Shown here: piece after piece, positions 1-48,617 of the stretch
Layout of the letters: each line of letters begins with the position of its first letter
Numbering within the stretch: the stretch's first letter is position 1
Source: Aradus depressus
Taxonomy: Eukaryota; Arthropoda; Insecta; Hemiptera; Aradidae
Assembly (NCBI GenBank): GCA_963662175.1
Contig: OY759221.1
Coordinates: forward strand, 37,384,045 to 37,448,044
Direction of reading: 5' to 3'
DNA: 64,000 nucleotides
The notes under the pieces: model-generated
Seen by the model: the letters and a program-made list of their open reading frames with translations, nothing else
Told to the model about the DNA's origin: nothing
Databases searched by the model: none
Translations under genes and position numbers: made by a program

Positions 1-1372
1 ACCTCTGCTGTAATTGCCACCTCTTTCATCAAGATCGCCAACTCTGTCACCAAAACCTCTGCTGTAATTGCCACTTCTTTCATCAAGTTCGCCAACTCGG
101 TCCACGATGTCTCTGACGTAACTGCCACTTCTAACATCACTATCCCCAATTCGGTCACCATAACCTCTGCTGTAATTGCCACCTCTTTCATTAAGATCGT
201 CAACTCTGTCACCATAACCTCTGCTGTAATTACCATCTCTATCATCAAGACCGCCTCCTCGGTCACTAAGTCCTCTACTGTAACTGCCACCTCTGTCATC
301 AAGAGCGCCAGCACGATAGGCAAGATCGCTGCCACGATTGGTACCTCGATCAACAACTAGGCTGCTTCCATAACCGATACCTCGATCGACGAAACCGCTG
401 CCGAAACTAGCACTCCGGTCATCAAGACCGCCACTTCGATCGCGATCGCCTAACCCGCTGCCATAACCGACAACTCGATCGCCTAACCTGCTACCATAAC
501 CCACACTTCGATCGCTTAGACCTCTGTCACTTCTGTCATCAGGACCTCTACCCCTTCTGTTGTCATGACCTCTGCCACTTCTGTCGTCAGGACCGCTGCC
601 ATGACTGGCCCCTCGATCACCAAAACCGCTGCTGAAAGCCCTGTGGTCAATACCGCCTTCACTTAACCCCCTGTCATAGCCGGCCACTCGATCGCCTAGA
701 TCTCTGCCATAAATACTACTTCTATCGTCAATACCACTGCCCAAACTATCACGTAGGTCGCCAGGACCACTTCCTAACCTACCTCGAAGGTCGCCCGGAC
801 CACTGCCATAGCTGACACTTCGATTACCAATAGCACTGCCCAAACTATCCCGTAGGTCGCCATGACCGCTGCCATAACTTGGATTTCTATCGCCAAGGCC
901 ACTGCCATAACCGGAACTTCGATCTCCAAAAACGTTATCTAACCGAGCACGTAAATCATCAGAACAGCTGCCAAAGTTAGTATTCCGATCACTAGGATTG
1001 ATACCATGTCCTGTATTTCTATCGTCAATACCGCTGCCCAAACTAGTACGTAGATCCGCAAAACCTGCAGGTCCTTCACCGGGGCCGCTGCACAAGCCAA
1101 CACGTCCATCCCCGAGACTTGTAGTAGGTCGATCGCCCATCCCAATAGTCACACTGGCACGTAGCTCACTGAAACTTGAAGGTCGATCAGAAAAATCGCT
1201 GCCAAAAATAGATGATCTTTCGCCAAGACCCCTGCCCAATCTTGCAAGTAGATTACAGACGAAACTTTTAGCACGATCGTCAGAATCGTTGTCTACACTT
1301 GATGACCGATCGTCAGGTCTCTTGTCGAAATCAGAAGTTCGTTCCCAGCGGCTCACTCTCGTATCCGACCTT
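1..1372 (-). CDS. Gene A last visible exon: long G/R/D/S-rich repeat region
   Basis: Read from the acceptor at 1372 to the window edge, this frame has 457 codons without a stop. It consists of degenerate units of about 12-20 residues built on the pattern GDR..xYGSG(L/P)GD, e.g. GDRVVGYGSGLGDRD. Toward the window edge the units change to a more regular form, D(L/S)(D/N)ERGGNYSRGFGDRVG. Arg, Gly, Asp and Ser dominate, as in RGG/RS-type disordered RNA-binding tails. The first part (RRSDTRVSRWERTSDFDKR) is non-repetitive. No stop or donor is visible, so the repeat continues beyond base 1. No counterpart exists in gene B, whose last exon encodes only 66 codons with a G/S/R bias. Opposite-strand open frames here are shadows of the repeat. 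Confidence 0.8.
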
Positions 1373-7300: not shown

Positions 7301-10300
7301 TCGAAGTTGATTAGAGGACCCAACAACAACACATCTTGACCAAGCCAGCAGGAGATTGTGCGAATGATCGCGTCTCCAACAGGACACCACTCAGGATGAA
7401 AACATCTCTTTATAATGGGACTTGTTCCGCATCTATTCTGCAGACGTGAACTAATGGAAGCAATAATTCCACACACCCTGGGCGTGAGAACATTCAATAC
7501 GAAGTTCCTCAACCCAGACGAGTAGAGGAAACAGCTTCAAAAGGATCCTGTGCTTCATTGAAGAGGTAGATAGCGGGGGCTGTTTTATGGGTCTTTAGGC
7601 TTTGGATAACATAGGTACAAAACCCACCCGTTCTATCAATTGAATTGAACCTATACAAAAACATTCCCTCTGGATGTTAAACAGCTTTCAGACATATTGA
7701 ACAGAAGAGGGCGCTGGTAGTGGGACAGGTAGCGTAGCTCAAGTTCGCAACCCGCTCGTTATATTGGAGGTGAGAAAACCTTGAGCATGCCGTCCTTCGG
7801 ATGGGACGTTAAGCAATGTCCCCGAGCCTGTACGATGTCAGGTACTCGTCATGTCCAGCAAAGCGACAAAAGAGCGCTCTAGTGGTAGTGGTAGGTGATA
7901 CGACCTCAATAATTGGGGCATGAGCCACAATACTTAAATTTGAACAGAAGGCGAATGCGTCGTTTCCCCGTGAAAAGTACAGTCAATGCTCGTGAAGCTG
8001 CACTGTATCTCAAATCTTCAAATTCACGCAATTCTAATTGTCCTGAAGCTGTCTGAAACTGTCCCTCTTTCCCAACACTGCGCCTCTCTGTTCCATAACT
8101 GGAAAGCCATCTCTGGCAATAAAGTTCTTTTGTGTACTTTTTAAATGAAGTCTTTCTTCAATAAGCGAATTGTGAGAATATTGACTCTTCTCCCCCACTG
8201 AACTGGAGGGAGAATTTCTTGTCAAATAGCTATAGATGCTATTTGCCACAAATATTTTTCGCATTTCATTTTGAAAAACAAAATACACCAGAAAATGAAG
8301 AGAAAAAAAATTGATAAATGAAGAGAGGCCTACCTTGGCCAAATATAGGCCGGGAGTGACATATGGGGAGAGAAGGAAGATTTTAGTGGTGGGACCGAGA
8401 GGTAGATTGGCTTCAATGAGGCCCATAAGAGGCTGAAAACAGGGAGCACATTGGTCCTTCTCTCCAAACAGACGGTAAGTGAAACCGTTATACACATCGC
8501 AGGAGTGGGGCGAACCCAGGATGTGGACGTTCACCATACCCTCGTCAGCCTTTCTGTAAACACTAGAAAAGATCCATTTTATTAAAAACTCTCCTCTGGG
8601 TTCCTCATTAGCACATTTTTGGAAGTACAAAATGAACGGAATCTTCGGAAGAAAGACACATATCCCTAGTATGGCCAAAAATACTGACACGAAAATATCT
8701 TTTCATCTATTGCTTTAAATGAATTGACCTTTAAACTCAGGTATTTCTTAAGCATACCCGATTGGCGAAGCCTCTTCTACTTGTGGTGTATAAGTTTAAT
8801 AAATAAAAACAAAGAACCTATTTAACTTTATATTCTCTAATTCACAAAAAAATATATACATAATGTGTACTGGTTTCAGTTTACGCCATTGTCAGCACAA
8901 AGTTCAAAAGTAAACTTCAAGTTTGCTAGGTTGTCATATTTATACAATCCTTAAGTTACTTGAAATTACCTAAGACTGTGACACTCTGTCCCCTGGTTGG
9001 AGGGGAAGACCTATCTAGAGATAAGATAACATTTACAAATATTTGAGTTGTCAATAATATAATAAAATAAAAAAATATCTAAATAGATCTCCAATACACA
9101 GGATAGCGGATGAGATAGACCAGCTTACCGAGACAAATTGAAACCGGGACGTTAAGCGATGGTCCCGAGCCTGTACGATGTCAGGTACTCGTTAAAGACC
9201 CCTACCCTAGGTGAATAAAAATTTAGGGTAGGCAAAATTTAGGACTTCCACAGTAGAGTCGGGCACATGTCCACCAGAGTGACAAAAGAGCGCTCTGGTA
9301 ATAGGCGGTATGACCTCGTAGTTAAAGCCCGGGCATGAGTCATAAAACTTAACCTAAGTTTAAGCCATATAATATATTGGCTCTATTAATCATTATAATA
9401 TATTGTATATTTTTATTATAAAGAGTGTGTACACATTTTCTTCTTGTACTTTGATATTATATCCCCTTTGATATTATAGCCCTCATTTCTTATATGTATT
9501 CTACTGTAAACCCAATTAATAGTTTATTTATTTCTTACTATTATATTCTCCTTATTTTATTACATTATTGATAACTCAGATGTTTGTAAATGTTATGTCA
9601 TTTGTTATGTCCCGGTCCCCATGGAACAGGGTGTTCAAGGTAACCTCAGGTAACCTAAGAACTGTATAAATATGACAACCTAGCAAACTTACCAATGTTA
9701 CCTTTGAACGTAGTATTAACGATGACGTAAGTTGAAACCGGTTCACTTGTATATATTTTTTTGTAGAATTAGTCAATATAATAGTTAAACAAGTTCTTGT
9801 TTTTATTTAGCTTTCCATTATATCGACAGATTACAGAAATGTTTTCGGATATAGAGGTTCGACAAAACCGTCTCCATGAGGTTCCTCCCTCTTTACAGTA
9901 GAGCTTATTACACTCTGCTCCAATTGAAAACATTTAGCGGACAAACCAGCGACGGATTTAGATTACGCCCGCGAGGTCCCAAGTTTCCAGATGATCTAGA
10001 AGAAGTATTAAGTAATGAGTGCATTCAATTGAAATTTGACTTGAAATAGGTATTAAACAGAGAAAATGAAGATATACATTCTGCATCAAACATAAGTGCT
10101 ATGTTGCAGGATCACGTGATCTTTGTTAGATTTATCCCAACATAGATATTGCTTTACGCATTTATTTAAGTATTCCCTCAACGAATTGTTCTGGAGAACG
10201 ATCATTTTCCACGCTAAAAAGAGTAAAAAACTATTTTATTAGTATGGATCAAGACAGACTTAATGCACTTGCAATATTGTCCATCGAAGTTGATGTATAA

Positions 10301-25875: not shown

Positions 25876-27967
25876 TTAGAAATTCTGACGTGTCCAAGAG
25901 TAGGGTCCTCCACCAGGATTTCGACTTTTGTATAAGACTGGCTCACGTGTCCACGTGTATTTATTGGTAGGTGCGCCGTCGGAAACGTATCCAGAAGTTA
26001 AGCCGCTTCCTCGTCGATCCCCAGTCGACCAACCCTCACCACCACTTGGCTGATTTGAGTTCTCTCCTTGCCATCTGTCATTCAAATAAAACATACAATA
26101 TGAGATTAATTTATATCTGCATAATTATAATAAACTAAATGATTTTTAAGAGATTTTTTTTTGTATGCAGTAAAAATGGAGAAATATGCAATATTAAATA
26201 AGTAATGCAGAGGTATCAGTCCAAAAATATATTTTATTTATACCACAACTAGTTTCGGAAATTAACTGCCATCCTAAGGTACACATACGAACAAAAAATA
26301 TTTTTAAAGATCACTAGAATTTACGAACTGTTGTAGAATATAATAGAATAGGTTTATTTGTCTGCATTCGATGACAAGATTTTTTACGCCGTGCAAATGG
26401 ATTAGATAATTTCGATGAGGCAGCTTTCTTATAGTGATGTTAGGACGGATTCTATAGACGAATTGTCATCCACCAGCATCTCTTGTAGGTGTCTTGTTTG
26501 GATCCCCTTGGTCATTAGTATATCCTTATATCCGGGGCACTCCTCCAAGATGTGGCTTACTGTGAGAGGCCAGTCCCCCAGCCTGGGGCTGCCACCCTGT
26601 TGATGGGTTAGCCGAGTATGACCCAGACAGAGCAACATTAGGCACTCCTCCTGCCTATCCCGCCTTTCCTAGGTTTTCCACTCGTCAACATCTTCTTTGA
26701 TGGACCTCAGTTTGTATTCTACTGACATGCCAGTCCACATCTCGGCCCAGGTTTATTTTATTTTGTGATGTACGCATTTCTTCAGGTTGGATGTCAGCGT
26801 CACTGTTATAGTTCAAGTCAATGACATTTTCATTCTAATTGTTATGTATTTTCAGTGTCTATTTTGATAAAACTTAATTTTTTCTTTATCACTTTTTATC
26901 TTACATAGGTTATTTATTGTTAATTTTTGAATTGAACTGTAACAGTTCGAAATTTCTAGTGATTATTTAAAATATTTGTTGTTTTATGTATGTTCCGATT
27001 AAACCTGAGGATGGCAGTTAATTTCCGAAACTATTTGTGGTGTAAATAAAATATATAGTTGGACTGATATCTCTGTATTACTTATTTAACAAGTAAGTCC
27101 AATACATCCGCCTACCAACCAAGAAACAAATATGCAGTGTTACATTTTAAATGCACATTTTTGGACATTCATTTATTTTTTTCTATCACAGGACACTTAT
27201 AATATATACATCCTTTTTCTCGTAAAGAATTAAAAATAATAATTAAAAAAAAAAATAAGTAGTGCTCGATCGAGGAATTGAATGAAGAAACATTTTCTTA
27301 GTTTTAAAACTTCAATTTTCAAATTTGATCTAAAATAGGTGGGACAAAACACGACAGAACTGCTACAGGACTTTAGGATTCCTCCAACTAACCCTATTAA
27401 TGCGTGAATGATATCCGTACTTATGTCGAGTGATCTGTAAGTTCAGTTATCGATTGCTTTGTCTCAAATGACATACCGCTTTTTATTAGTTAGTTATTGT
27501 GACTAGATGTACGAGCTTTAAGTACGAGATCAGATCGCCGACTACCAAAGCGTTCAATAGTCATTCTGGTGGAGACGAGGCCGACTCTACAGTAGGAGAC
27601 CTAAATTGTGTCTACCCTGGTATATTCAACTAGACTTTACCGAGTACCTGACATCGTACAGGCTAGGGACCATCGGTTTTTTCACTCCTCAAATTATAAA
27701 AATTAAGAGCTCGGCCGGGTTTGAACCTGCGATCTTGAGCTCAGAAGGCAATTACGCTACCTCTGAGTTTCCTTGTTTATTAATTTTTGGAGATTACTTC
27801 TTTTGAGATGTGTAAAAATTTTACTTTTATTTAATTTTTTTAATCATTAATGATTATTACCTTTTTTCAGACCAAGGATTTGTATAGGATATCTGCTTCT
27901 GATGTGTAGGTAATATTGACTGTATATGCTGGCTGACAGCCTGAAGACCAGTTGCAACCTGGCTCAT
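25876..27967 (-). CDS. Gene B last two exons: helix and G/S/R-rich C-terminus
   Basis: Exon 27861-27967 encodes MSQVATGLQAVSQHIQSILP and continues to NPWSEK. Exon 25876-26074 encodes RWQGENSNQPSGGEGWSTGD and continues with glycine, serine and aromatic residues to a TAA stop. It corresponds to the start of the much longer tail of gene A but lacks the repeat expansion. The tail length difference (66 against more than 490 codons) is the largest difference between the paralogs. Confidence 0.78.
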
Positions 27968-33900: not shown

Positions 33901-36900
33901 CAGAGATGTTTTATTTATTATATAAAACTCTCTCCCAGGCGGGATTCGTCCATACAACCAAATCCCTACGCTTTAGCCCACACGGCCCCCCATGAAGTGA
34001 TAGTCTGAAACCATCATTAGAAGTTAAATTAATGCTCCAGGTTGAAAAAAAAAAAAGATACGTACCTTAGCCAAATAAAAGGCAATAATGACACTATCGG
34101 AGACTAGGTATATATTAGAATGGGCTCCAAGAGCAGTGTTGGTCTCGAGAAGGCCAACTAGGGACCGCATCCCGCTCACAGAGTGATCCTTGGTGGCAGG
34201 CAGTCGGAACGAGTGTCCGTTTATCATATCCACGGAATGTGTAGAACCCAATATGTGGTTGTCATCCAGCCTTGAGGCTTTCTCCAAAGAGACACTACAA
34301 CAAATTTGTATTATTGTTATTGGCAGGGTTAGATTAGTAGAAAATGAATGCATAAAAAATATTATCAGACCTCTTCACTTAATAAATAATTCACATACTT
34401 GTTAGTAACTCTTTATTCACTATTTTCAAATAATAGCCGCTTAATAACCTTGATAATACAAAAGAAAACTTGACGATTCCAAAAGAAACATTATACAGTT
34501 GACTCTCGATAATTTGAAACTCAAGGGACCAGAGGAAAAGTTCAAATTACCGAGAGTTCAAATAACCAAGACGGAATTAGGTAAAAATCCAAATAAACAA
34601 GAGTGTCATTAAAAGTATGAACGTTAATACATAAGTGATATTTATTTAAAAATTTACAAAAAAATATATATATGTACATACATAATTATGTACATATATG
34701 GTACAATAGGTACCATATATATGGTACAAAAAAATAAAAATATTATAGGCAACCTGGAGCTCATTTTGATTTTAAAAATTAGAAAAACGCTGTTTAAATT
34801 TAACTAAAGAAAGAAAACTGCAAACTCAATTAATCTAGTCCAGGGTATGCAAACAAAGAACAGGTCTGTGCATGATCAAGTGACTCACATCAGAAGTGGG
34901 CACTACAAATTATATAGAGTTGGGGAGCCCTGACTTCAAATTATAGAGAGTTGGGGAGCCCTGACTTCAAATTATAGTGTTGGCGAGTAAGATGCCATTG
35001 CTACAACTTCAAATTACCGAGGGGACCAAATGTACATTAATTTTTTTCAATTTATCGAGTGTCAAATTATCGAGAGTCCACTGTATATTAAAAAGTCGTC
35101 GGTGGGTCCTCTTTATCACCTCCAAAATGAATTAAGTTGTCGCTCTCCCTCTAAAGCCAATCGACCATTTGGGCTAAAAATCGATAGTTGATTTACATAG
35201 AGGGTTCTTGAATTATACTATATTTTGTGTTACTACATTGGCATTTATTTTTTTTTTTTAATTAAGCGTCTCCTTTCCCTATGATTTCAGAATTCATAGG
35301 CGTCATTCTTATATACATATAAAATTTTGTGCCGATATATTCATTACAAAGGCAATTAGTAGAGTTTTTGTGTTAAGCCTCCCGCCCAATCCCCCTCTTC
35401 CATTGCAGATTAACTGAAAATGAATAGGTGTCGTCCTTAGAGGGTTTTGGATACACATATACAATTTTGTCATACAATCATTCTATCGGAAGTTATCCTG
35501 TTCATATACACATATACAGATAGAAATCATTTTTAAAATTTTTTTACAATAAGCGGTCGGAAAACATGAAATTCCTTCTAAATTAATAAAATTTGCGACC
35601 GACTTCGTATAGCTGAGAAATGAAAAAACAATCGATAGGGTGAAATGAGATACTTAATGCTGGGAGTCATAAGAAGCTAATGTTTGTGAGACGGGCAATA
35701 GAATGAGGGACCAGCTCGGCGAGGCGACGTTAGTTATATTGACTCTTGGCAGGGCTTTTAACTATGAGGTTAAATTTACCTACCCTCTTTAACCGAGTAC
35801 CTCATATCGTACAGGCTCTGGACCATCGCTTAACGTCCCATCCGAAGGATCAGCTTTCACACCAACGACGCGAGTTATCATAGTTGTAAGGAATATGATC
35901 ATTACCTGTAAATATCAACAAATCGAACAAGAACACTTTCAATTCCTCTTAGTTTTCCATACTTTTCAAAATATTTTCCCATTTTAGTTTTAACCTCATC
36001 TATACGTTTTTGTGTCACTACTAAATAGCTGTCCTCAGCTCCTTGCAATTCTTCTTCTTTAAGCAGCTCGCCCTTTTCATCTAGTTGACAAAAAAAAAAA
36101 ATAAATAAATAAATATATTATATTGTTATTATATATTTGTGATTATATGCATGAGCACCACGTCCGCTATACAGTGTATATTGGAGATCCGTGGAGTGTC
36201 CGCATAACGTTTTTAATAGGTTAGTTAGTTATTGTGGCTCAAGCTCGGGCATTATTTACGATGTCATACCGCCTACTACCAGAGCGCTCTTTCGTCGTTC
36301 TGGTGGACATGAGCCCGACTATACAATGGGAGTCCTTAATTGTGCCCACCCTAAGTTTGTATTCATCTAGGATAGGGGTCTTTTAACGAGACCTGACATG
36401 GTACAGGCTCAAGGTTTTATCATCTCCTAAGGGCATCAGTCGGGTTTCGAACCCGCGATCTTGAGATCAGTAAGCAAGCACGGTACCTCTGAACTACCGG
36501 CGTCCTCAACTTATTATGTAGAAGCAAATAGCTTTCACGAGACGATTTCTCCATCGTAGACAAGGGCCCCTGGTGACTCAACTGTTATAATCAATTGATA
36601 ATAAAATTAATTTATATGATAATAATAAATAAATAAACTCACTGGTCATAGATCTAAAAGATTCTATTTCAATTTTCGGAACAGCGACTATCAGTGTATA
36701 TCTAGCGGAGAGGGTCATCCGAAATCCAAGGCCTACGATGTCACCTTTCCGAGTCGCACGATTAATAGCTTTCAGTCCAATTTCAGGTAATTTTTCAAGA
36801 AAATGCTGTAAAAAGTAACAAAAGAAGAAAAAATTATCTTCTCGTAAAAGAAGGAATATGAATAATGAAAGAAACTAAATCTATGAACCGTCTAACTGTA

Positions 36901-39900
36901 AATTATTGTCCAAAATACATAAAAATGCACAATACATTGCACTAACGAATACAAGCTTTATGGCTTTATGTAGTAACTAAATTTTTAAGGTATAAACAAT
37001 ATTAAAATAATAAATATAGACATGCGCTCTAACAGAAACAGAAAGAAACAATGCAATCATTTAGAGAACAAAACAAATTCAAACAAAATGTGACCTACGA
37101 AACAGGAGAATTGTAAAATAGTAGTGTTGGGCATCAGAGGAAGGATGGAAGAGGTTTGAAATCGAGACGAATGGAGGAGTTGACATGTTTTGTAGAGATA
37201 TTGTGAAACACTTAATAAAAAATAAAGAAAAACGTAAGTTTTCTTAAAAAATATTAATGTAGATGTTTGCTAGCGACTGTAGAATTCAAAATTCTGGGGG
37301 TATTGAGGGTCAGTCATTATTGACTGACCCTCAATACCCCAGAATTTTAAAAAATATTGTCTATTTCAATATATAATATGGTATATTTCCTTATTGCTAC
37401 CATCTTCAGCCACGACTTAACAAATACTGTATTTGTTAAGACATGGCTGAAGAGTGAAGCAATACCGAAAGCACTCTCATATTATATACATTTTGTGAAA
37501 TAGACAATATTTTTTAAAAAACAACTTTTTTCTTCATTTTTTGACTGGAGTATTTTGTATACTTTCGCGCCGCAGGAAGAAGAAGATAAGCAATATATTA
37601 AATTAAAATTGTCTAAATTTCTAAATTTATACTGAAAAATAAAAATAAATTATTGATTTTTTTAACATCTACATTATCGGAAAACTCCACAATTGATTCT
37701 GAGTCTGCTTTGTGAGAAATGTTTGTCGGGGGACAAGTGTCTCAAACGTCTAAGCTACAGAGCCTGCAGACCCATTCAGGCCAAAACTGATTAGAAGAAA
37801 TTAGACATTCAAAACATTTTCAGATATGTTTTTCCAGAACTTGTAAATCTGGACTTATTCCCTTTCGCTACAGTTTGGATCGGGAATACATTTTTCATAC
37901 AGGAGATATTTTCTTATATAACCAACTTGTTTACACCTTTAACGACAGATTAACCGATTGAATTTGTCGCCACAACTTAATAAATTAATATCTGAAGAAA
38001 TGGACAGGGCATTGCACAATTCCAAAATTTCATTCTTAATACATACTCTGTTTTGGAACTGCTGTTAGCGTGGAAATAGTGCCTCATGGAAATAGCTTCT
38101 GTAATTGCACAAATCCTATTTTTTTTGTTGTTTTTTCAAGGATTCAAGTACACTAGGTTTTTGGGTTAAATTACTGCTTTTCGCTGTACTATTATATAAA
38201 CAAACAATGACCAACCTTCATTAGAATGATTATGTCTCGAGGTATACTGATACAGGTGTCCAGAGGGATAACACGAGTCTTGCCAAATTTGCAAACCCTC
38301 ATCCCAGCTACTATTTTTTTCGTTTTTGTGTCTTCTTCTACAAAAAAAAAAAAAAAAAAAAAATAGTAATAATAATAGTAAAATAAAATGCAAACCAAAA
38401 AATGGAAGATAGGGCTGAGAAGAGCACACAGAAATAACAGCCCCTAATTACATTTTTCTTAAATTTTGAGCCCAATTTCTAGAAAAATTAAAATTCATAA
38501 CAGGCGAAAAGTTACTTTTTGAACATCAATAGAAATACATAGTTTGAACCTTTTGAAGTAGAAGTGCGGGATTTTCTAAATTTGATATTATTAAACAATT
38601 TTTGAAAAAACAAAAACAAACTCAAAATTGGAGCTCATAAACATTGCTAACTAAAAATTAAAAAATACTACTAAATTCTGGATACACAGAATACACATAG
38701 ATTATTATCCTACCGAGTTACCATTTTACCACAAATACAATAATGAAAACTGACATTATTGCAGTGATATTGTGAAATAATTCAAATGAACTTGAATGAA
38801 ATAAAATTAGTTTATTTGTGGTACTGTCTAATTTCACAGCATATATATATATACATGGGAGTACTTTCGGTATTTCTACCATCTTCAGCCAAAAGTATAA
38901 ATTACATGGGAGTACTTTCATTTTAGTTAGTCTTTATCTCTTATGCTTTTGGCTGAGGATGCTAGAAAAACCGAAAGTACTCCCATGTAAATATAGTCTG
39001 TGAAATTAGACAATACCATAAATAAACAAGTTTTATTTCATTCAAGTTCAAACATAATAATGTTTCAAAATCTGCATTAAGGTTTGTTTACTTTTTAAAT
39101 AAATTTAAAGTAAATATACTTATTAGTTTTCATAGACAAAATGTAATTTAAATTTATTGAATTATGCTCAAATATAAATCCATACTTGGAGAGCTGTTAA
39201 TTGATACCTGGCGCATAGTGCACTCTAGTGGCTGTCACTTTACAAGCAGCATTTTTACTTTATACATGAGTCGACCAGTTGCAAAACTCGTTAAATCACC
39301 TTTTTTTCAATTTTGAGGTTATGGTATCAATGGATTCGTCTTTTCAAGAGCAATCGATTAAATAACTTTTCTTGGTTCAAAATCCGCTGAAAGTCATTCA
39401 AAACTACGGAGAAAGTTGTGAACAGGTGCAAAACCCGTCATTTATACTTTATCTACAGTTGCAAACCCCGTTAAAACATTTCAGGTTCAAAACTCGTCAA
39501 TTCCTCTCAAGAAAAGATAGCGTCCTATCCTTACAGAAGCAAAAATCGTTAAATATATTTTTTTAGAAAATTATTGCAATCATTTTCCATTAAAATTTAT
39601 GTTAAACAACCTGCTGATTAGTGATAAAATTGACAAACTGACACAGCAGACGTTAAAAAAGTGTTATTCCAAACCGGTCAAATTTATGGTGTTATTCCAA
39701 ACCGGTCAATGTTATTCCAAATCGGTCACGTACCTCAGCAGTACAGCGACACACTTGCCACAGCACATCATCACGATCACTAGTGACAAATGTTGTCGTT
39801 GTGAATATGTAAATAAATAAATAAATAAAATAAAATTCCAAACCCTGAAGCAAACCTAGAAATAATGAAAAATTTTGTATCTGTCATACATATTGGTGAT

Positions 39901-42900
39901 GAATGTAGAGTAAAAGACTGGAGAACTTATGCTGAAGGCATTATAAAAAAAACCAGGGCAGTGGCACTTTAAATTCCAAAAATCAAAAAAAATAGTATTT
40001 TCTTGTAATGCAAAAAAAACTGCCGTCGTTAGATATTGGTTGTATCATGTTACAGCCCTCATATGGTTGTATCACTGTATGATCTTATGCTTTGAAAGAA
40101 ATGCTGAACATACAATCATACAAGGGCTGTAACAAGATACAATCAACATCTTGAGTACCCCTATTATTTATTAAAAGTTTTGGGACACAATTAAATACTT
40201 AACGGGTTTTGCAACTGCATGCGGAAAAAGATGGCTGGCGATGCAGATGCAAAATCCGTTAAAACCCGTCATTTAAAACTATAAATTAAAAAAACTGTAT
40301 TTTCCAGTTATGCCAGATTATACACATTCAGTAGTCTGGCAGAATTTTTCAAGCTTTAAAACGCAAAAAAAAGGGTACAGTTCTAGCCCTATTAGTTGGC
40401 TTTTGACATGTTTTCCTCCTTTCTGTAAAAAACCAAAATGATCAGATAACGGGTTTTGCAACTGGTCGACTCACATAATATATCACTTATTACATCATCA
40501 CTTCTCCCATTTATTTTTTGCCTTCTTAAAAAAGTAATTACAGATGTTTCGGGAAACACTCTCATCATCAGTATCTATAATACATGTGCTCTTTATGTTA
40601 ACTATTCCTTCTGCCAATCAGAATCTTCCATTTATAGAGAACATAATTAATGAGTCAACTTCTACCATTTAAACACAGTTCTACGTCTCATGTAGACGTC
40701 GACTCAGTAGATATGTTCTATAAAAGGAACATTCTGATTGACAGAAGAAATAGTTAACATAAAGAACACATGAATCATATATATAAAGCTGAAAATGTCT
40801 GTGCGTTGTACCGCTATAACTCACGAACGGCTTGATGGATTTGATTAATTTTTTTTAAATTTGTTCGTCATCGTCTGTGGAAGGTTATAGGCGTATTAGT
40901 ACCTCAATATCTGGTCCATACCAGCATCCACCCACGCAATCTTTGTAACTCAAAAACCACTGCAATGATTAATGAGGAATCTTTTTGAATAGATAAGTTT
41001 TATCTACCGGAAGGTTAAGGTCTATTTTTTAATCAACCCCTGGTCCATCCCAGCATCCACTCACGCAATCTTTGTAACTCGAAAACCATTGCAACGATTA
41101 ATGAGAAATCTTTTTGAATAAATTAGTTTTAGCTCCAAAGCTAGCGTTACTACAGTTGAAGGACTATAAGCCTTATTCCGTATGAATAATTGAAAATTAT
41201 AACATCATGAATGTACTGTCGAGGAACTGAATAGCCTTATAGGAGATATTGGGAGAAAAGTCAAAGTTCCCCGGGCAACGCCGGGTATTACTGCTAGTTA
41301 TAGATATTGATGATGGGAGTGTTTTCCGCAACGTTTTAAATTGCTTTTTAAGAAGGCAAAAAATAAATGGGACAAGTGATGCTGAATAATATATTAAAAT
41401 TTAATATGAATGAACATTCTCTTTATACAACCAAAAAGTAATTTTTATTGTTTACTCTCATAGATAGCAGCACAATACTAAAACATGAAAAAATACGCAA
41501 AATATAAATTTCTGATTTTTTCGTAATTATAGAAGGGAAAATTATGTAATATATATGTTACGGGTAAAGTTAGATTAACGGTTAAACCTAGGATTACCCG
41601 GGTAAACTGCGTAGTACCCGCTGCCGCTAGGTTAAAGTTGGGTATACTAATGACAAGGCCATTAGTGGACGTATGTTCCACTAAAAAGATTAGGTACTTA
41701 TTAATTAGCTCGACCACACCTCAATTTCCATTGTTGTAAGCTGTCTAACAGCGATAATCATTCATCTGGGTACATAAATTCCTAGAACAAACATAAATTG
41801 AAATATTACAAAATTTGGGGGCGTATTTGCCGGCGTTCCGCCGGCGGGACGGTATATCTGCCCCTCCCGTCGTTCCTATATTTGAAGTAGTACAGGTTCT
41901 AGCTTTAACATATACTTTACCCGGGTAAAGCCCGAAACGTGAACTAATTCAATTATATTTCGGACTTTAACCAAGCGGCAGCGGATACTACTAGGTTTAC
42001 CCGGGTAATCCTAGGTTTAACCGTTAATCTAACTTTACCCGTAGCATATATATGATAAATTTGATGCGAACCTAAGGATATATATGGGTTATAGTCGTAT
42101 CCTTCGATAGGAGTGACGGGTAACATCATCTGGGTGACGAGGTTATCATTCCTGTTGATAGCTTTCTTCTTCTGTTTCCTTTTCAGTATGGTGAGGATAT
42201 TTCCCGATAAAGATTTCTTCCTTAACAACTACAACAAGTATACAGTTAATAACTAAGACATTTTTCAAAATAGGAAGTATTCTAAAATTGTTAGTTATTT
42301 CCTCATTAATTCCAAGGTACACTCTACAAACCCACTAAATTAAGAGTGAAATGAAATGAAAATAAATTTTATTATTGTGGTCCGAGGTCCCCGGTAGAAT
42401 GAATACATATAGAGTAAAGAACAGGAAACAATGAAATATAGTATCAGTGTGACGTACAAAGAAATAAATAGAAAGGTAAATAAATTAGTGCTACATTGGA
42501 GAAAAACTATACAATTAAAAAAATAGACAAACAAAAGATTAACAGGAAAAAACATAAAATTAACAGCTTCATTATGGTGAAAAAAATAAAAAATAAATAA
42601 AAGTATCTACATAAATAAAAGAGAATATGTAAAAAAAAAAAAAAATCTATATAACTAAGAAAAAAATAAAATGGATAATAAAAATCGACAGAGCATAATA
42701 CTGTGATGGTTGATTATAAAAGAGAAGGGAGGATGCCCAGACAAGGTTTGAGATAAAATTAATTTTAGACAGTAGGAGCTAGATAGAGAAGGGTGAGGAG
42801 AGAGAAGAAAATGAAAAATAGTCAAAATAAAATAAGAGTAGAGATAGACAAGAAAACAAAACGTTTTTGCTAGACCAAAGGTTTTTCTGTTTTTGTCTAA

Positions 42901-45900
42901 TCTCGTGACTCAAATTTTTTCAAAACTGGTACTGAAGGTCATTCGACGTTGCCCGGAATAACTTTAAGCAAGTTAGTTATGTTATCTGTGCCGTTAGTAA
43001 TTTTTTAAGTTAGATGATTTCAGAAACTTTCAAACAAAATAAATAATATATATTTTTTTAATCCAAAACTGCGTATAAAAATTAAAATTAACAGAATCCT
43101 ACTACCTGTGCCTACTTTTGAAATTATTTTAAAAAATACTGTGTTTTGAGCCTTAGCTACATCAAGTGTGACGTGATGTCTAAAGACACAACCTTCGGTA
43201 ACTAAACCAGGTTGACAGAATTGAGGACTCCCATAGTAGAGTCGGGCTCATGTCCACCAGAGTGACGAAAGGGCGCTCTGGTAGTAGGCGATATGACCTC
43301 GTAGTTAAAGCCCGGGCATGAGTCACAATAACTAACATATGAACACCATCTCACCTGTTCATAGTAGGGCATATTTCTAAACGGATAGAGTGCGCCAAGA
43401 GCTTCTTCCAATGATAATATAGGTTTGATTGTAATATCTTTATACTTTGGCGATAATAATGGAGACATGACCTAAAAAAAAAGGAAAGCAAGAAATTAAA
43501 CATAAATAAGCAGATCGGAGCTGCACAGAACTTTTCCATAGGGCTATTTTTGGGTTTTGAGCTTTAGTTTTAGCACAATTATATACATTTTAGCAATGAG
43601 GTAAGTTCGTGTAGTGAATATATGAACATTAGAGCTGAGGAGGAACCGGTAGCTCAGAGATAACTCAAGATCATGGGTTCGAAACCCGGCCGAGGCCCTT
43701 AGGTTTTCCATAGGTTGCAGGTCCTGTGCGATCTCAGGTAATCGGTAAGGACCCCTAACCTAGATAATTAAATGTACAACTCCCACTGCGCCTACTACAA
43801 TGATGAAAAAAAGCTCACATAGTTAAATCCGGACATAAGTCACAAAAACGCACAAGATGAGAGGAGGACAATTTCATTAATCGTTTACAATTTATCCCAC
43901 AATGATGTTTAAATACATTTCAAAAGTCACCGATCGCCGAAATTTTTCGATTAGATTTTTCCTTGGAGGTTTATTGAAATTTTATATATTATTCTCAAAT
44001 CCATTATGGCGGATCCAATATGGAGGAATACCGATGGAATTGGAAGTACCGCTTCAGCTTCGGATAACATCTAAACAAATGTAATATGGCGACCAAATTT
44101 TCAAGTTTGTTGAATATATCCTACAGTTGAAAATAAAAACCACACCCAAATCTGTTCAACCGTTTTTGAGTTCTGTATGAACTTACAAACAAACGAATCT
44201 ACAGATCAAACGCACATTCTCATTCACATTTTCTTTTGGTCTGGGGCGATATAACCTTGTAGTTAAAGCCCGGACATGAATCCCCCCCCCCCAAAAAAAA
44301 AAAAAAAAAAGTTAAGCAACCCCTCTAATATCTTTGACCGAAACCCAGTTTATACCTTAATAATGAGCTCCTGAATCCATGTGTAAAATTTCATTTTGAG
44401 AAAATTGAAAACTGACATTATTGCAGAGATATTGTGAAATAATTCAAATGGACTTGAAAAAATAAAATAAAACTTGTTTATTTAAGATATTGTCTAATTT
44501 CACTAACTATATATACATGGGAGTACTTTCGGTATTTCTACCATCCTCAGCCAAAAGCATAAGAGATAAAGTTTATCTCTTATGCTTTTGGCTGAGGATG
44601 GTAGAAATACCGAAAGTACTCCCATGTATATATAGTTAGTGAAATTAGACAATATCTTAAATAAACAAGTTTTATTTTATTTTTTCAAGTCCATTTGAGA
44701 AAATTATCATATCGACAGTTATTACAGTTAAGTCCCTTCATTAGGCCGAATAGATTGATTATCAATTGGTATCTCACTCTTGGAGACTTGAATCCGGATA
44801 TGAAATTTTGTATCAACATACTCATTCAATCGGTAATTATCGTGTCCACGTTTTTTGGATTCGGGTTCGAAAACATGATATCCCAGTAAAAATTTTGATT
44901 GTTTACATAACTTTTCATACATAAAAAATAAATAAATATATATATATATATATATTTCCTAGTGCAGGGATACAAACCTTGAGGTTTATTTTCCAGGTGT
45001 TCCAAATATATCCTTTTTTAAGTTTACATTTTCTCAAGGCGCAGTTCCGATCCTCAAGTGACATCATTTTGAAAAAAAATTCTTGATCATTAGGTCCTGG
45101 AATGTGTATTAAGGGTGCCGCCACTCGCATTTCTTTGGTGAAAAAGTTGAAGAAATTTTCTACTTCTATTTCCTAAACAAAATAAATAAAACATCGTTAT
45201 TTGAATATCATTCATTACATTCATGAGAAAACTACGGAACTCTTATTTTTTTTTTTTTTTTGGGCTTTATTTCATGAACGATCAGACGGGAGTGTCCTCA
45301 ACCGCTTTCGCTCAATGATCACCTGAGAGCTTATAATAGGTTCGTGGTAGATAATTAAAAAGTATTTGACTATAATAAACAAATTGTATATACGAGATGT
45401 TTTATGTAGAGACTAGGTTGCATAAGCACTGATGAAGCTATATGTTTTATGTAGAGACTAGGTTGCATAAGCACTGATGAAGCTATATGTTTTATGTAGA
45501 GACTAGGTTGCATAAGCACTGATGAAGCTATATGTTTTATGTAGAGACTAGGTTGCATAAGCACTGATGAAGCTATATGTTTTATGTAGAGACTAGGTTG
45601 CATAAGCACTGATGAAGCTATATGTTTTATGTAGAGACTAGGTTGCATAAGCACTGATGAAGCTATATACTCGAAAAACTATGTGCAGGCAGAAACTGCA
45701 CAAGTCTTTCATTAATAAAGAGTGTTGCTGGGTGGCAACATGTGTGAGGATGGCCACCCAGCGGCAGGTCCTCGGGAGGATATATATATATATATATAAT
45801 AAAATGCCTCAACATTTTTTTTACGACTTTGGCTAATAATTTGTAGGTATGGGAATTTATGTGTGGTTCCTCCGTCCTGATAAGGCCTTAATTTTTATGA

Positions 45901-48617
45901 ATGTTTTAAGCAAAACTGTTAGCGGGGAAGCTTAACTCAAAAAAAAAAATAAAATAACTGCCGATGTAATGAATGCGTCGACATGAAACTTTATATTTAA
46001 ATTCAAAACCTCATAAGGACGACACCAATTAATTTTCAACGGGATCCAAGGAAATCCATATTAATTAAAATCTGAAAATTTTTAAAGTAGGTAAGTGTGA
46101 TAGGTAAACGTAACTCGCGATAAATGCACTTTTCATTTGATAAATGCATTTCAATTTTTCCTGACTAGGTTAAGACAAAATGAAAGACAAAATGAAAAAT
46201 TGAATTACAAGTTGAAAACAATAATTGAATATATATATTTTTTTTATGGAAAAGGTTTATAAAACAAGTTAAGAATTTTATTAACTACTACAATTCCTCA
46301 CAATGTTATTTGTTGTTCCTTTTTTATCTTATATATATATATCTTATATATATATTCATATATATATATATATATATATATTCATATATAGACATAATCT
46401 AATGTCTGTACGTTTGTGTTTTATAGACTACTAAACTTCGATCCGAGTCTGTTCTTATGTTCGTCGAGTCACCGAGAAGGTTTAGAAATAGTTTTATCCC
46501 CACCCACGTACCCACCCCCGCATTTGGTGCATTCAGAAGTAAAATTATTACACGAATTGGCGTAAATTGTTTCGTATTGAATTCTATAGAGCACAGAAAG
46601 TGTTTGAGACTTCGTTTTACCTTAACCTTACCAATATCAAGAAAGTCGTGTATGTATCACATATAAAAAATACATTTACATCTTTTTTATTTTGAAAAAA
46701 AAAAAAAATTATTTTCAGCGGTCGATCACCTATGGAATAAACTGAATCAATAAAGTAAAAATAAAAACTAAATTGCATTTTTATTTACAAATCTTATATA
46801 TATAAATGAATGTCCGTCTGTGTGACTTATAGGATGCGAAACTATCGAAGCTATTGCTCTCAAACTTATGGGTTATGTTTAACACATCACTGGAACGGTA
46901 TAAAAAAGGGTTTGACTTTTAATTTTTTTTTTTAATTACAAAAATAGCCATTGCAACGCATGGCGGGTTTAGGTAGTTTAATTATAAAACCCTTGAAGAG
47001 TTAACAGGTCATAACAAGGAAAACAAATATATATTTCAGCCCGTCCAATTCCATTATTAAATTTTTTTTTTTTGTTCTATACATTTTTATTTGCGAGATG
47101 GTAAGGAGAATACCATTTTTATTTTACTTCTCCAGCTATAGAAGAATAGGGGAAGTTATGTAATCGGTCAGAAATTCGATGTTGAGTTTTCAACGGAATT
47201 TCACGTTGTCCGACCTACTGATTTCAAAAATGAAGGTATGTACTTCCCCAGCAAGAATTATTCAATTACCTCAATGCTTTCCCTCCAAAACGAATCGACC
47301 ATTTGGGGTAAAATTCAATAATTGACTTACATAGTAAATTATGTGTCGATACATTCATTACATCGACAGTTATTAAGTCGAGCCTCTCTGGTCCTCCCCA
47401 TCCCTTCGCCACATTTTCGCAGAAAATTAATAGGTGCCCCCTATGAGGGTTTGAATTTAAATATAAAATTTCATGTCGATACGTTCCTTACATCGGCAGC
47501 TATTAGAGTTTTTGTGTTAAGCCCCCCTCTAATCTCCGCTTCTCTGTTTGACCAAATATCTGAAAATCAATAGGTGCAGTCCTTAGAGAGTTGTGGACAC
47601 ACATATAACCTTCGTGTCGATACATTCATTCTTTCGAGAGTTATCATGTTCATAGGCACACAAAAATTTATACAATTTTTTGAATCTGGAGGTCCATAGT
47701 ACATGAAATTTCGTAGGAATTCCTGACCCATTATACAACTTCTCTTGAACTTCGTGTAGGTGGAGAAGAAAAAACTTTCGATTCAGGACTATAGTTGTAC
47801 AGTTTAGTTACCAAGTTGTCTAAACGTGTTACTCCAGTCATTTTGAGTAATAATGATTCAGTATCTTCATATGTCGAATCTTCCTCCTCTTCGTCTTCTT
47901 CATCATCCTCTTCTCTAACTTCAGTTTCAATTAGTGAAACTACATCTTCTTCTCTAACTTCAGTTTCAATTAGTGAAACTACATCCTCTTCTCTAACTTC
48001 AGTTTCAATTAGTGAAACTACATCCTCTTCTCTAACTTCAGTTTCAATTAGTGAAACTACATCCTCTTTAATTTCTTCAACCTCTGAAAAAAAAAAAAAA
48101 ACATTAGGTAGGTAGGTATATGGTATTTGGTGAAGGCGAAGATCAGTTCTTTGAGGAAACCACACTTTCAGGTCTAAGCAAAAATAAACATTTCAGATCT
48201 GATAATTACCTGTCTTTATTTCTAGTGCAACCTCTTCTTCAGTGATGGTCTCGGCTACGGCAAGACCGTTAACGTTAACTTCTCCTGAATCAATAAAATA
48301 ATGTTAACGTAAAAAAAAAAACATCCACTATAACGTACAATAATTTTTTATTGGCTCTCAAAACAATTTTCTGATCTGAAAATTACCTGTCTTTTCTTCT
48401 ACACCTATCTCAATTGGTACTGTGGTACTGGCTTCCGCCATATCCTCAATTTTAATTTCACCTGAGAAGAAAATATTGTTAAACCTCAAAAAGAAAAATA
48501 TATAATTCTTACAATATTATAAATCAAATAACTCTCTCTTGATACAAAACAGCATCTTAAAACAAAACATGATGGAATATTAATCATTAATATTTTACCT
48601 TTTAGTTCAGTACTCAT
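25876..48617 (-). CDS. Gene B: TRMT2A-like pseudo-methyltransferase, complete (831 aa)
   Basis: Sixteen exons join to 2496 nt, a multiple of three, from ATG to TAA: 48599-48617, 48387-48461, 48210-48284, 47812-48083, 44978-45172, 43355-43471, 42072-42228, 38216-38337, 36643-36805, 35906-36080, 34066-34294, 32040-32211, 31230-31404, 29643-29886, 27861-27967 and 25876-26074. Order: acidic repeats (residues 7-130), RRM (about 134-212), central region (213-470), Rossmann domain (471-660), basic P-rich linker (661-730), helix (731-765) and a G/S/R tail ending PYSWTRQNF. Compared with TRMT2A, the catalytic Cys place is Tyr611 (FVNYW), DPPR is replaced by IFWNFH, and the base Glu place is Ala651. 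Only the general fold motifs survive. Inference: a pseudoenzyme, possibly keeping tRNA or RNA binding. It has no internal stop despite strong divergence from gene A, which argues against a pseudogene. Confidence 0.82.
26170..27125. mobile_element. Palindromic Penelope-type element with a retroelement insert
   Basis: Left arm 26170-26335 and right arm 26930-27125 are inverted (CCACAACTAGTTTCGGAAAT against ATTTCCGAAACTATTTGTGG). The outward core in the right arm is CCTGAGGATGGCAG..CCGAAACTA. The middle contains the minus-strand tail of a non-LTR element (26338-26770). It lies in the last intron of gene B. Confidence 0.5.
26338..26770 (-). pseudogene. C-terminal remnant of a non-LTR retrotransposon pol
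   Basis: Minus-strand frame LLCLGHTRLTHQQGGSPRLG, then DWPLTVSHILEECPGYKDIL. The RxGHTRLTH.......LTV.HIL..CP.Y pattern is the RNase-H-distal end of jockey/CR1-type pol, with the upstream zinc-knuckle cysteines lost. The 3' end reads as an ATTCTATTATATTCTAC-type tail at the left side. Truncated, dead copy. Confidence 0.7.
27483..27775 (-). mobile_element. SINE copy, diverged
   Basis: From TTAGTTAGTTATTGTGACTA to TTACGCTACCTCTGAG. It keeps GTTTGAACC (B box) and GGACCATCG, with internal deletions. Confidence 0.65.
28764..28936 (+). pseudogene. BED/CGGBP1-like zinc-finger N-terminus of a hAT-type protein
   Basis: MPKASSTFSCTLKHWTEAFN, then SKDVTVFTTDGKVVFCNYCS, then KQVPCESKSQIDHHVNTG, followed by GTGAGC. 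FxxxDGxVxFCxxCxKxV.......I..HxxT is the DNA-binding finger found at the N-terminus of some hAT transposases and of CGGBP1. It ends at a donor-like site inside the His-Thr motif, so it may be a first exon, but no second exon is visible before 29500. It is on the strand opposite gene B, in its intron. Whether it is expressed is unknown. Confidence 0.55.
29643..34294 (-). CDS. Gene B exons 11-14: degenerate methyltransferase domain and linker
   Basis: Exons 34066-34294, 32040-32211, 31230-31404 and 29643-29886. Motifs in order: DNHILGS, FRLPATKDHSVSG (where the family has FRxxxxxFFQVN, so Gln and Asn are lost), IYLVSDSVIIAFYLAKKCG (SAM loop lost), HVTYQY (acidic SAM-ribose residue lost), LQDLAKESGIHNIQFVGNF (helix and strand kept), VIFWNFH (DPPR lost), FIKKGLTNFIFVNYW (Cys lost), GIFPVDIAPYGPNFAMVLFF (PVDxFPHTxHxE place, Glu lost). 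The linker after it is rich in Pro, Lys and His. Exon lengths 172 and 175 and their phases parallel those in gene A. Confidence 0.8.
29975..30475 (+). repeat. Family P copy
   Basis: CAGTCGACCGTTTGCGCTAA to CGTACATCTGGAAGTAAAA, both CATTCATTACATCGG and CATTCATTCTATCGG modules present. Confidence 0.65.
30726..31093. repeat. 46-bp minisatellite, exactly 8 units
   Basis: The unit begins TTTAGTAGAGATCCCGTCCA and ends GAGGGCTTCACATA. All eight units are 46 bp. Unit 1 differs by CGCCC for CGTCC. Units 1-4 read CAACACAGG and units 5-8 read CAATACAGG. The only variants are these two sites. It lies in the gene B intron just before exon 31230-31404. Confidence 0.95.
31470..31955. repeat. Retroelement tail inserted between inverted pieces of a minisatellite-like repeat
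   Basis: Left (31480-31545): GTGCCGGCCATTGCCTTGCA and GAGGTGCCTACCGTTGTC. Right (31800-31950): about three units of roughly 45-60 bp containing CTAGTATATGCTAAGCAA and GGTAGGCACC, in opposite orientation. Between them, about 31550-31800 has a GC-richer block ending GGGGCCACGGCTCGAGTCCC and then a C-run and A/T-run, resembling the 3' UTR and tail of a non-LTR element. No coding sequence is left. Confidence 0.5.
34496..35083. mobile_element. Non-autonomous pogo/Tigger-like transposon
   Basis: Left end CAGTTGACTCTCGATAATTT, right end (reverse complement) CAGTGGACTCTCGATAATTT, TA on both sides (34494-34495 and 35084-35085). Internal sub-repeats of AAATTACCGAGAGTTC type and a doubled ATTATAGAGAGTTGGGGAGC segment. 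No transposase frame. Confidence 0.8.
35090..35625 (+). repeat. Family P copy
   Basis: Starts AAAAGTCGTCGGTGGGTCCT and ends CGTATAGCTGAGAAATGAAAA. It directly follows the pogo-like element ending at 35083, so that element inserted at or next to its edge. Confidence 0.65.
35730..35865 (-). mobile_element. SINE fragment
   Basis: TTAGTTATATTGACTC and the part around GGACCATCGCTTAACGTCCC. The middle and tRNA head are missing. Confidence 0.6.
35906..45172 (-). CDS. Gene B exons 5-10: second half of RRM and TRMT2A central region
   Basis: Exons 44978-45172, 43355-43471, 42072-42228, 38216-38337, 36643-36805 and 35906-36080. They encode EIEVENFFNFFTKEMRVAAP (RRM alpha-1), LYPFRNMPYYEQLLRKK (family WxxPYxEQLxxK), TPIEGYDYNPYISLG, EEDTKTKKIVAGMRVCKFG, IPLDTCISIP, HFLEKLPEIGLKAINRATRK, and a charged helical stretch ending GIESVLVRFVDIYS, which sits where TRMT2A has its GVTCLYFVEEG-type strand. 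Insertions of mobile DNA lie in every large intron. A MITE ends only about 20 bases from the donor of exon 42072-42228. Confidence 0.78.
36221..36514 (-). mobile_element. SINE copy, nearly full length
   Basis: From TTAGTTAGTTATTGTGGCTC to TGAACTACCGGCGTCCTC, with B box GGGTTTCGAACCC. A deletion removes the GGACCATCG-TTAACGTCC part. Confidence 0.7.
37288..37348. repeat. Perfect palindrome, 30-bp arms
   Basis: AAATTCTGGGGGTATTGAGG runs into GTCAGTCATTATTGACTGAC and returns as CCTCAATACCCCAGAATTT. The spacer is only a few bases. It directly abuts the hammerhead-bearing palindrome at 37346-37522. Confidence 0.85.
37346..37522. mobile_element. Palindromic Penelope-type element
   Basis: The left arm contains AAAATATTGTCTATTTCA and the right arm the inverse TGAAATAGACAATATTTT. 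The cores are CTGAAGATGGTAGCAATA (left, outward) and CTGAAGAGTGAAGCAATACC followed by GAAAGCACTC (right). The centre, ACAAATACTGTATTTGT, is itself palindromic. Flanking pieces (37195-37250) recur at 61845-61930 and 63260-63310. Confidence 0.5.
38790..39060. mobile_element. Palindromic element with an intact hammerhead-like core on minus
   Basis: Left arm, minus strand 38894 to 38854: TTTTGG, CTGAAGA, T, GGTA-GAAA-TACC stem-loop, GAAA, palindromic AGTACT, C, then CCATG. The right arm (38957-38995) has CTGAGGA but a damaged stem II (GCTAGAAAAACC). A stray third copy of CATGGGAGTACTTTC lies at 38907. A 5' shared block (AAAACTGACATTATTGCAG at 38747) also flanks the copy at 44407. Confidence 0.6.
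40476..41391. mobile_element. Palindromic Penelope-type element split by a Helitron
   Basis: Left arm 40476-40625 and right arm pieces 40730-40774 and 41298-41391 are inverted (ACACTCTCATCATCAGTATC against GATATTGATGATGGGAGTGT; TTATGTTAACTATT against AATAGTTAACATAAAG). The break in the right arm coincides with the Helitron 40775-41297, with host A before and T after. Confidence 0.6.
40775..41297 (+). mobile_element. Non-autonomous Helitron
   Basis: Starts TCATATATATAAAGCTGAAA after a host A. Ends with the hairpin CCCGG-GCAACG-CCGGG, an 8-base spacer and CTAG, followed by host T. TC..CTAG ends, a hairpin shortly before the end, and insertion between A and T without target duplication are the Helitron criteria. 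Interior: two diverged copies of CTCACGCAATCTTTGTAACTC. No Rep/helicase sequence. Confidence 0.75.
41553..42050. mobile_element. MITE with long inverted ends
   Basis: The left end GTTACGGGTAAAGTTAGATT continues AACGGTTAAACCTAGGATTACCC and is mirrored at the right by TAACCGTTAATCTAACTTTACCC (41990-42045), about 75 bp of imperfect inverted repeat. A GC-rich part of the interior (41825-41875) contains GCCGGCGTTCCGCCGGCGGG. Superfamily undecided. It ends about 20 bp from a splice donor of gene B. Confidence 0.6.
43200..43340 (+). mobile_element. SINE 3' part
   Basis: From about AACTAAACCAGG through GAGGACTCCCATAGTAGAGT to GAGTCACAATAACTAAC, ending only about 14 bases from gene B exon 43355-43471. 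Close proximity to a splice donor is notable. Confidence 0.7.
43638..43855 (+). mobile_element. SINE copy with head
   Basis: GAACCGGTAGCTCAGAGATA, a good B box GGGTTCGAAACCC, a shortened body, and an end CATAAGTCACAAAAACG. Confidence 0.7.
44444..44698. mobile_element. Near-perfect 255-bp palindrome with hammerhead-like cores in both arms
   Basis: Symmetric about base 44571 with 127-bp arms, from TCAAATGGACTTGAAAAAAT to its inverse. In the right arm: TTTTGG, CTGAGGA (44592-44598), T, GGTA (44600-44603), GAAA loop, TACC (44608-44611), GAAA (44612-44615), AGTACT (44615-44620), C, CCATG. All type I hammerhead parts are present in both arms. The low arm divergence means the copy is young or gene-converted. 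Confidence 0.7.
45399..45668. repeat. 45-bp minisatellite, exactly 6 identical units
   Basis: The unit begins GTTTTATGTAGAGACTAGGT, continues TGCATAAGCACTGATGAAGC and ends TATAT. Six units with no differences that I can see. Because 45 is a multiple of three, an open frame with a 15-residue period appears on minus, which is an artefact. Intron of gene B. Confidence 0.95.
45910..46070 (-). repeat. Family P fragment
   Basis: GTTAGCGGGGAAGCTTAACT, TGCCGATGTAATGAATGCGT, TCATAAGGACGACACCAATT. Confidence 0.5.
46320..46400. repeat. (TA)n microsatellite
   Basis: Interrupted TATATATA tracts, partly TTCATATATA. Similar tracts at 44936-44955, 45779-45799 and 56800-56820. Confidence 0.85.
46788..46978 (+). 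mobile_element. Possible degenerate Helitron
   Basis: TCTTATATATATAAATGAAT with GTCCGTCTGTGTGACTTATA at the left, and a hairpin GCCAT-TGCAACGC-ATGGC followed by GGGTTTAGGTAGT at the right. The layout resembles the clear Helitron at 40775 but the end reads GTAGT, not CTAGT. Confidence 0.4.
47090..47770. repeat. Two family P pieces in opposite orientation
   Basis: 47130-47240 is a minus-strand 3' piece (ACTTCTCCAGCTATAGAAG, GGGGAAGTTATGTAATCGG). 47238-47770 is a plus copy (GTACTTCCCCAGCAAGAATT to GTGTAGGTGGAGAAGAAAA). It ends about 40 bases from gene B exon 4. Confidence 0.65.
47812..48617 (-). CDS. Gene B exons 1-4: acidic N-terminus with tandem repeats
   Basis: Exon 1 (48599-48617) encodes MSTELK. 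Exons 2 and 3 (48387-48461 and 48210-48284) are both 75 nt, both phase 1-1 and both begin GE(I/V) and end in KT, so they look like an exon duplication. Exon 4 (47812-48083) carries four copies of a 39-bp unit encoding EVREEDVVSLIET, then a DEE-rich run and the RRM beta-1 strand SLLLKMTGVTRLDNL before the donor. The unit copies are nearly identical at DNA level, indicating recent expansion. The plus-strand Ser/Thr-rich open frame here is a shadow. Confidence 0.75.
47914..48066. repeat. 39-bp coding minisatellite in gene B exon 4
   Basis: About four units of 39 bp (plus-strand text AACTTCAGTTTCAATTAGTG and on to TCTTCTCT). They encode the 13-residue repeat EVREEDVVSLIET on minus. Differences are single bases (ATCTTC/ATCCTC). 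Length keeps the frame. Confidence 0.9.

Follow-up and report, generated by a model that had tools for sequence, protein, structure and literature searches.

A tandem family of putative pseudoenzymes related to the tRNA methyltransferase TRMT2A

Three neighboring genes, here termed A, B, and Z, form a tandem family whose derivation from TRMT2A, the RRM-containing tRNA m5U54 methyltransferase, is supported by profile comparison and shared gene structure. We propose that their products are TRMT2A-derived, RNA-binding pseudoenzymes that would serve as catalysis-free RNA chaperones or scaffolds, a reading to which we assign a probability of about one half.

Gene structure of the cluster

The analyzed window is a stretch of 64,000 nucleotides (C7:37384045-37448044) from a genome of 697.7 Mb in 74 contigs. 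One of six contig ends inspected is a pure CCTAACCATC array, with 300 copies in 3 kb. The motif TTAGGGATGG is the reported telomere repeat of bed bugs, a shield bug, and a leaf-footed bug (Heteroptera; PMC11354137), and the array indicates that the source is probably a true bug, which narrows the arthropod origin assumed earlier.

Self-comparison of the open reading frames in the window revealed collinear minus-strand matches between ~20.5-5.8 kb and 45.2-31.2 kb. The corresponding genes, A and B, both lie on the minus strand in head-to-tail order, with B upstream and A downstream. A preliminary description of this DNA had proposed a tandem pair; the orientation stands, and the copy number is raised to three by Z, which adjoins the window just beyond its edge. 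The model of B runs from 48617 to 25876 (16 exons, 842 codons) and that of A from 22938 to window coordinate -497 (15 exons, about 1423 codons), with the last 498 bp of A outside the window. Every exon is open in both models. Their total of 31 exons equals the number given earlier, and the open frames are confirmed, while the codon counts of 831 and 1238 claimed at the time are replaced by the figures above. All three genes, A, B, and Z, preserve their splice sites and phases and stay open over 788-1423 codons. Stop triplets fill 6.3% of plus-strand positions in the window, so more than 500 open core codons per gene are far from chance.

The nine core exons that pair between A and B have GT-AG ends and, as had been noted before, identical phases. 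For a few of them the splice sites were set visually from this very comparison, which makes the phase match partly one of choice; the phase match of all three genes to the organism's own TRMT2A, given below, is independent of that choice. The cores of A and B are 39% identical over 528-534 aligned codons, in keeping with the earlier remark that they differ at most residues, and mutual identity among A, B, and Z is 39-46%. Two small exons predicted close to the 3' end of Z are left out of its joined model, whose last residues are uncertain.

Gene B opens with a 19-nt exon that carries the start codon (48599..48617; MSTELK, phase 0 to 1) and matches exons of the same size and phase in A (MSTQVA) and Z (MSSEVA). 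In the gene model, exons 2-4 (48461-48387, 48284-48210, 48083-47812) encode an acidic N-terminal extension and RRM strand 1; within the coding sequence of exon 4, a 39-bp tandem repeat (47904-48068; 4.2 copies, 98%) encodes EVREEDVVSLIET repeats. Comparison with A and exon-wise alignment place the remainder of the RRM-like region, from helix 1 to the last strand, in exon 5 (44978..45172) and the central region in exons 7 (42039..42228) and 8 (38216..38337). The intervening exon 6 (43355..43471) encodes a linker ending in PYYEQ, the PYxEQ landmark of TRMT2A, with an intron directly after the Gln as in the organism's own TRMT2A; the intron that separates exons 9 and 10 (36805-36643, 36080-35906) is absent from that gene. 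By exon-wise alignment, the Rossmann part starts in exon 11 (34066..34294), where the former SAM motif I is now YLVSDSVIIAFYLAK, and continues in exon 12 (32040..32211), where the former acidic residue and DPP region now read ...TIVIFWNFH. Exon 13 (31230..31404) covers the former catalytic Cys region, now FIFVNYWPA with Cys changed to Tyr as read by eye. Exon 14 (29643..29886) encodes the final strand, NFAMVLFF, in which the base Glu is Ala, and a Pro/Lys-rich linker; its donor (GTATCC at 29642) is weak, and the exon end at 29643 was placed by phase. The tail, comprising a Gln-rich helix, PWSxKR, and a Gly-rich end, is encoded by exons 15 and 16 (27967-27861 and, with the stop codon, 26074-25876), all on the minus strand.

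Several repeats and copies were observed in and around B. A 602-bp piece (window 38856-38253, intron and part of exon 8) is copied to C5 at ~20.888 Mb at 98.7%, and the upstream edge of this copy begins in a repeat also found elsewhere in the cluster region. Introns of B contain two minisatellites, both probably young (30726-31098, 46 bp x 8.1, 99%; 45397-45668, 45 bp x 6.0, 100%), and a near-perfect, MITE-like palindrome (44458-44684) whose translations from both strands match at 98-100%. A family of short interspersed repeats occurs on both strands at 51352-54172 and 60201-61346, and recurs near 9210-9382 in an intron of A and near 36155-36383 and 43220-43336 in introns of B.

Gene A, also read on the minus strand throughout, begins with the sole 19-nt ATG exon with a donor score >0.5 in 25800-21763 (exon 1, 22920..22938; MSTQVA), followed in the gene model by an acidic stretch and RRM strand 1 (exon 2, 21621..21763). 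The RRM-like exon 3 (20279..20500) was defined by comparison with B and exon-wise alignment, the linker of exon 4 (18523..18636), which ends in LYHEQ, by exon-wise alignment, and the central region of exons 5-8 (16923-16725, 16011-15890, 15069-14910, 14437-14263) by comparison with B. Exon-wise alignment places the former SAM motif I in exon 9 (8334..8562), where it now reads FLLSPYVTPGLYLAK. Exons 10-12 (6601-6430, 5995-5815, 5732-5315) encode the remaining Rossmann part and then a Pro/Lys-rich linker, and contain the changes of Cys to Tyr (FISYW, by eye) and Glu to Ala (TFALAIF). Exons 13 and 14 (3557-3433, 2213-2091), assigned by the gene model and tail comparison, encode the tail held in common with B and Z, and exon 15, the first part of which occupies 1..1372, encodes a 622-residue Gly/Arg/Asp/Ser-rich repeat that ends at the stop at window coordinate -497.

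The common tail of A, B, and Z consists of a Gln-rich helix, PW(S/T)xKR, and a Gly-rich end, and it is hugely enlarged in A, where its 705 residues include 30 RG and 18 GDR motifs; B and Z have one RG each. The new extensions described previously are present as low-complexity sequence. With the acidic N-terminus included, the part before the tail has a pI of 9.4 in A, 6.0 in B, and 6.2 in Z.

TRMT2-type enzymes of the same genome

A further TRMT2A, the kind of gene whose presence elsewhere in the genome had been raised earlier, lies at C7:32.78 Mb on the same chromosome as the cluster; it was found through matches to alligator TRMT2A and modelled from them. It retains motif I, DPPRAGL, the Cys, and the Glu, matches PF05958 at 7e-14 (52 bits; cut-off 23), and is likely active. 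It reads SCDGKA at a site that is SCNPRA in vertebrates. A search of the whole genome with PF05958, introns ignored, returned 0 matches; TRMT2A is present nonetheless, and the negative therefore means little.

A second TRMT2-like gene, at C1 ~40.319-40.329 Mb, encodes DLCCGVG, the Cys (ISCKADAP), and the base Glu, with no RRM exon seen, and lacks the intron at the PYxEQ border that A, B, Z, and the C7 TRMT2A all have. TRMT2B is not known to have an RRM. The C1 gene might be TRMT2B or another TRMT2A-type enzyme. Like the cluster genes, TRMT2B is a second TRMT2-type paralog; it makes m5U54 in human mitochondrial tRNAs (PMC7237155).

Relationship to TRMT2A

In hhalign, a profile of A and B matched ten vertebrate TRMT2A sequences with a probability of 89.5 (E 2e-6, score 56.7) over 438 collinear columns, against control scores of at best 31.8 in 100 column shuffles, 30.0 in 60 block shuffles, and 18.0 for the reversed profile. 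When Z was included and the organism's own TRMT2A was added to the vertebrate sequences, the probability was 97.7 (E 2e-12, score 101.7, 458 columns; best shuffle 30.1, n=60). Against vertebrate TRMT2A only, the same three-gene profile reached 96.2%, with a match that ends short of the last part of the Rossmann domain. Neither the parts of the A/B profile taken alone (N-terminal 1.4%, central 25.2%, Rossmann 0.7%) nor the single genes (A 7.7%, B 29.1%) were significant, and these comparisons indicate that the strength of the match lies in its whole length rather than in the parts.

All eight introns of the organism's own TRMT2A have a counterpart in A, B, and Z, in the same order and in the same phase (0,0,0,1,0,2,0,1). 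Four of the eight coincide to the aligned residue when the alignment is left uncut at the exons (after xK of the RRM, YxxQ, K before xF, and LAK), and the other four fall in poorly aligned stretches. The RRM-like exon could be aligned, with the aromatic corresponding to F113 kept; the RRM model from Pfam gave no match. The assignment to TRMT2A, which the preliminary description had made from recall, is thus upheld by the profile comparison and the matched introns. A, B, and Z resemble TRMT2A/Trm2 in having an RRM-like exon, PYxEQ linker, central region, Rossmann part, and final VD..P strand, in this order, but differ in two additional core introns, in a C-terminal tail of another kind, and in an N-terminus that is acidic, most clearly so in B and Z. 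In a tree, they sit together on a very long stem (2.1), and the branching order among the copies has a support of just 50; the tree yields no age for the split.

Pfam yielded nothing above the cut-off for single exons, the joined cores of A and B, or full-length Z, and PF05958 (tRNA_U5-meth_tr; cut-off 23 bits) matched neither the A/B cores nor full-length Z. Comparison of PDB sequences with the profiles gave no real match; the best, adenylosuccinate synthetase at E 0.83-0.94, was treated as chance.

Loss of the catalytic site

A whole-protein alignment misplaces the C-terminal part of these proteins, and motifs were read from the exon-by-exon alignment instead. Counted from the common exon end, SAM motif I, D-x-C-C-G-x-G (DVCCGTG), has become FLLSPYV in A, YLVSDSV in B, and YLLSNYV in Z. 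The acidic residue of GVE is His in A and Z and Tyr in B (Gln in the gapped alignment). DPPR is absent, and the same exon end reads VIVWKSN (A), VIFWNFH (B), or VLVWKSN (Z), with a Trp after the strand in all three. The nucleophile Cys, C538 in human numbering (PMC10484741), is Tyr in each copy (FVFISYW, FIFVNYW, and FVFVNYF versus LVFMSCD of the organism's own TRMT2A); MAFFT gaps the Cys and Asp columns, and the replacements there were read by eye. The base Glu (E581) is Ala in all three. The loss of catalytic motifs put forward earlier therefore extends to Z, and the replacements common to the three copies suggest that the triplication followed the loss of catalysis.

A, B, and Z also lack the FFQxN motif and the YRNKCEF stretch, which includes K242, and each of them has Lys at the position of E76 in the RRM. 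Because these known contact residues are not kept, binding of the T-loop may be lost as well.

Selection and expression

Pairwise NG86 omega among A, B, and Z is 0.40, 0.31, and 0.28 (upper bootstrap limits 0.49, 0.40, and 0.40), averaged over a dS of 1.35-1.62 that is near the useful limit. Omega was below 1 in 360/360 bootstrap replicates, with maxima of 0.58, 0.45, and 0.41. The coding sequences of A, B, and Z are under purifying selection, which agrees with the long retention claimed for the first two.

At C14:10986954-10987238, a sequence of 285 nt matches the spliced coding sequence of Z at 99.65% (one mismatch) and spans the modelled junction 1618|1619. Z is transcribed and spliced, at one junction; the earlier proposition that the exons are spliced together is confirmed to this extent, for Z. 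The fragment is embedded in retroelement sequence with RNase H-like and integrase-like frames, recognized by eye, and we read it as a piece of host transcript recently captured by a retrotransposon.

Discussion

Under the proposal made here, A, B, and Z would keep the RNA-grasping body of TRMT2A, would neither bind SAM nor methylate, and would have been repurposed for RNA binding, with the common tail as an assembly or RNA-contact surface. They may act on tRNA-like or other RNAs as chaperones or scaffolds, by analogy with TrmA and METTL14; an RNA-binding scaffold or a regulator of TRMT2A had been suggested earlier. Function without catalysis has precedents in the same family: E. coli TrmA is described as a tRNA chaperone that folds tRNA with no need of methylation, catalytically inactive yeast Trm2 rescues tRNA-Ser variants, and a bovine mitochondrial Trm2 homolog is reported to lack one key catalytic residue (PMC11301382). 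A catalytically impaired mutant of human TRMT2A shows similar RNA binding (PMC10484741). Mutants of E. coli trmA are listed as having reduced fitness (PMC11301382), and loss of the whole gene is described as lethal (PMC10484741). TrmA and Trm2, however, are enzymes with a second function, and the bovine homolog has lost one residue, whereas every inspected motif is replaced in A, B, and Z, which are moreover three tandem copies with a common extra tail. METTL14 offers a further parallel, as it combines an idle methyltransferase site with C-terminal RGG repeats that are needed for RNA binding (PMC10932547). The few RG motifs in B and Z speak against the proposal as a whole. Against a simple tRNA chaperone stand the missing YRNKCEF and FFQxN and the pI of 6.0 and 6.2 before the tails of B and Z. 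Given the lost contact motifs and these pI values, other RNAs, or proteins, may be what the family targets.

The leading alternative is that A, B, and Z are partners or regulators of active TRMT2A, adjusting m5U54 in the manner of METTL3/METTL14 and having little RNA role of their own. A TRMT2A with motif I, DPPRAGL, Cys, and Glu on the same chromosome would suit this, and a dead sister that aids an active methyltransferase is a known arrangement (METTL14; PMC10932547). Yet the consulted portions of PMC11301382 and PMC10484741 name no partner subunit for TRMT2A or TrmA, the activity of the organism's own TRMT2A is a prediction for a protein that reads SCDGKA in place of the vertebrate SCNPRA, and the 39-46% identity and differing tails of the three copies point to more than one job; we regard a partner role as unlikely.

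It is decidedly improbable that the three are still enzymes with a rebuilt active site, in which aromatics would stand in for Asp and Cys and perhaps serve another cofactor or reaction. The Trp after the former DPP strand and the Tyr in place of the Cys, both read by eye, do recur in all three copies, but with 144 of 512 ungapped columns invariant in any case, two such aromatics are unremarkable by themselves, and nothing is left of the Gly-rich SAM loop, whose place is taken by a different sequence in each copy (SPYV, SDSV, SNYV).

That the cluster belongs to a different family of RRM proteins and resembles TRMT2A by chance would accord with the missing Pfam and PDB matches, the insignificant profile parts, and an identity to TRMT2A of just 17-21% (best pairwise BLASTP E 2e-4), but the full-length profile comparison with its controls and the eight matching introns leave this very little room.

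The genes could also be dying or neutral relics, TRMT2A pseudogenes open by chance, given that all three have lost the catalytic residues and that a large protein set yielded no homolog among its scored candidates; three long open genes with intact splice sites and phases, omega below 1 in every replicate, conservation of the tail from copy to copy, and a spliced cDNA fragment nearly identical to Z make this reading hard to hold and extremely improbable. Those homolog searches scored 7996 candidates for the core of B, none at E 1 or better, and 5749 for the A/B alignment, none at E 10 or better; they depend on 5-residue word matches, which orthologs below an estimated ~50-60% identity escape, and make no statement on other bugs.

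TRMT2A, the chaperoning by TrmA, a degenerate mitochondrial Trm2 homolog, and pseudoenzymes in general are already known. A multiplied, catalytically dead TRMT2A family is not described in the parts of the literature on TRMT2A paralogs, pseudoenzymes, and insects that we consulted. The present family is invisible to Pfam and was revealed only by gene structure and profile comparison.

For the history of the RNA-binding pseudoenzymes proposed here, we tentatively suggest that a true-bug lineage underwent one loss of catalysis, then tandem triplication, and then divergence to ~40% identity, which would have given rise to a family of RNA chaperones or granule scaffolds on the body of a tRNA methyltransferase, with a common C-terminal module that in A expanded to the 622-residue RG/GDR-rich repeat, fit for condensates. 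The cluster is a case of pseudoenzymes multiplied in tandem with a common extra tail. As a natural, selected family of dead TRMT2A derivatives, it would provide a direct test case: binding or refolding of tRNA by A, B, or Z would mean that chaperoning can stand alone.
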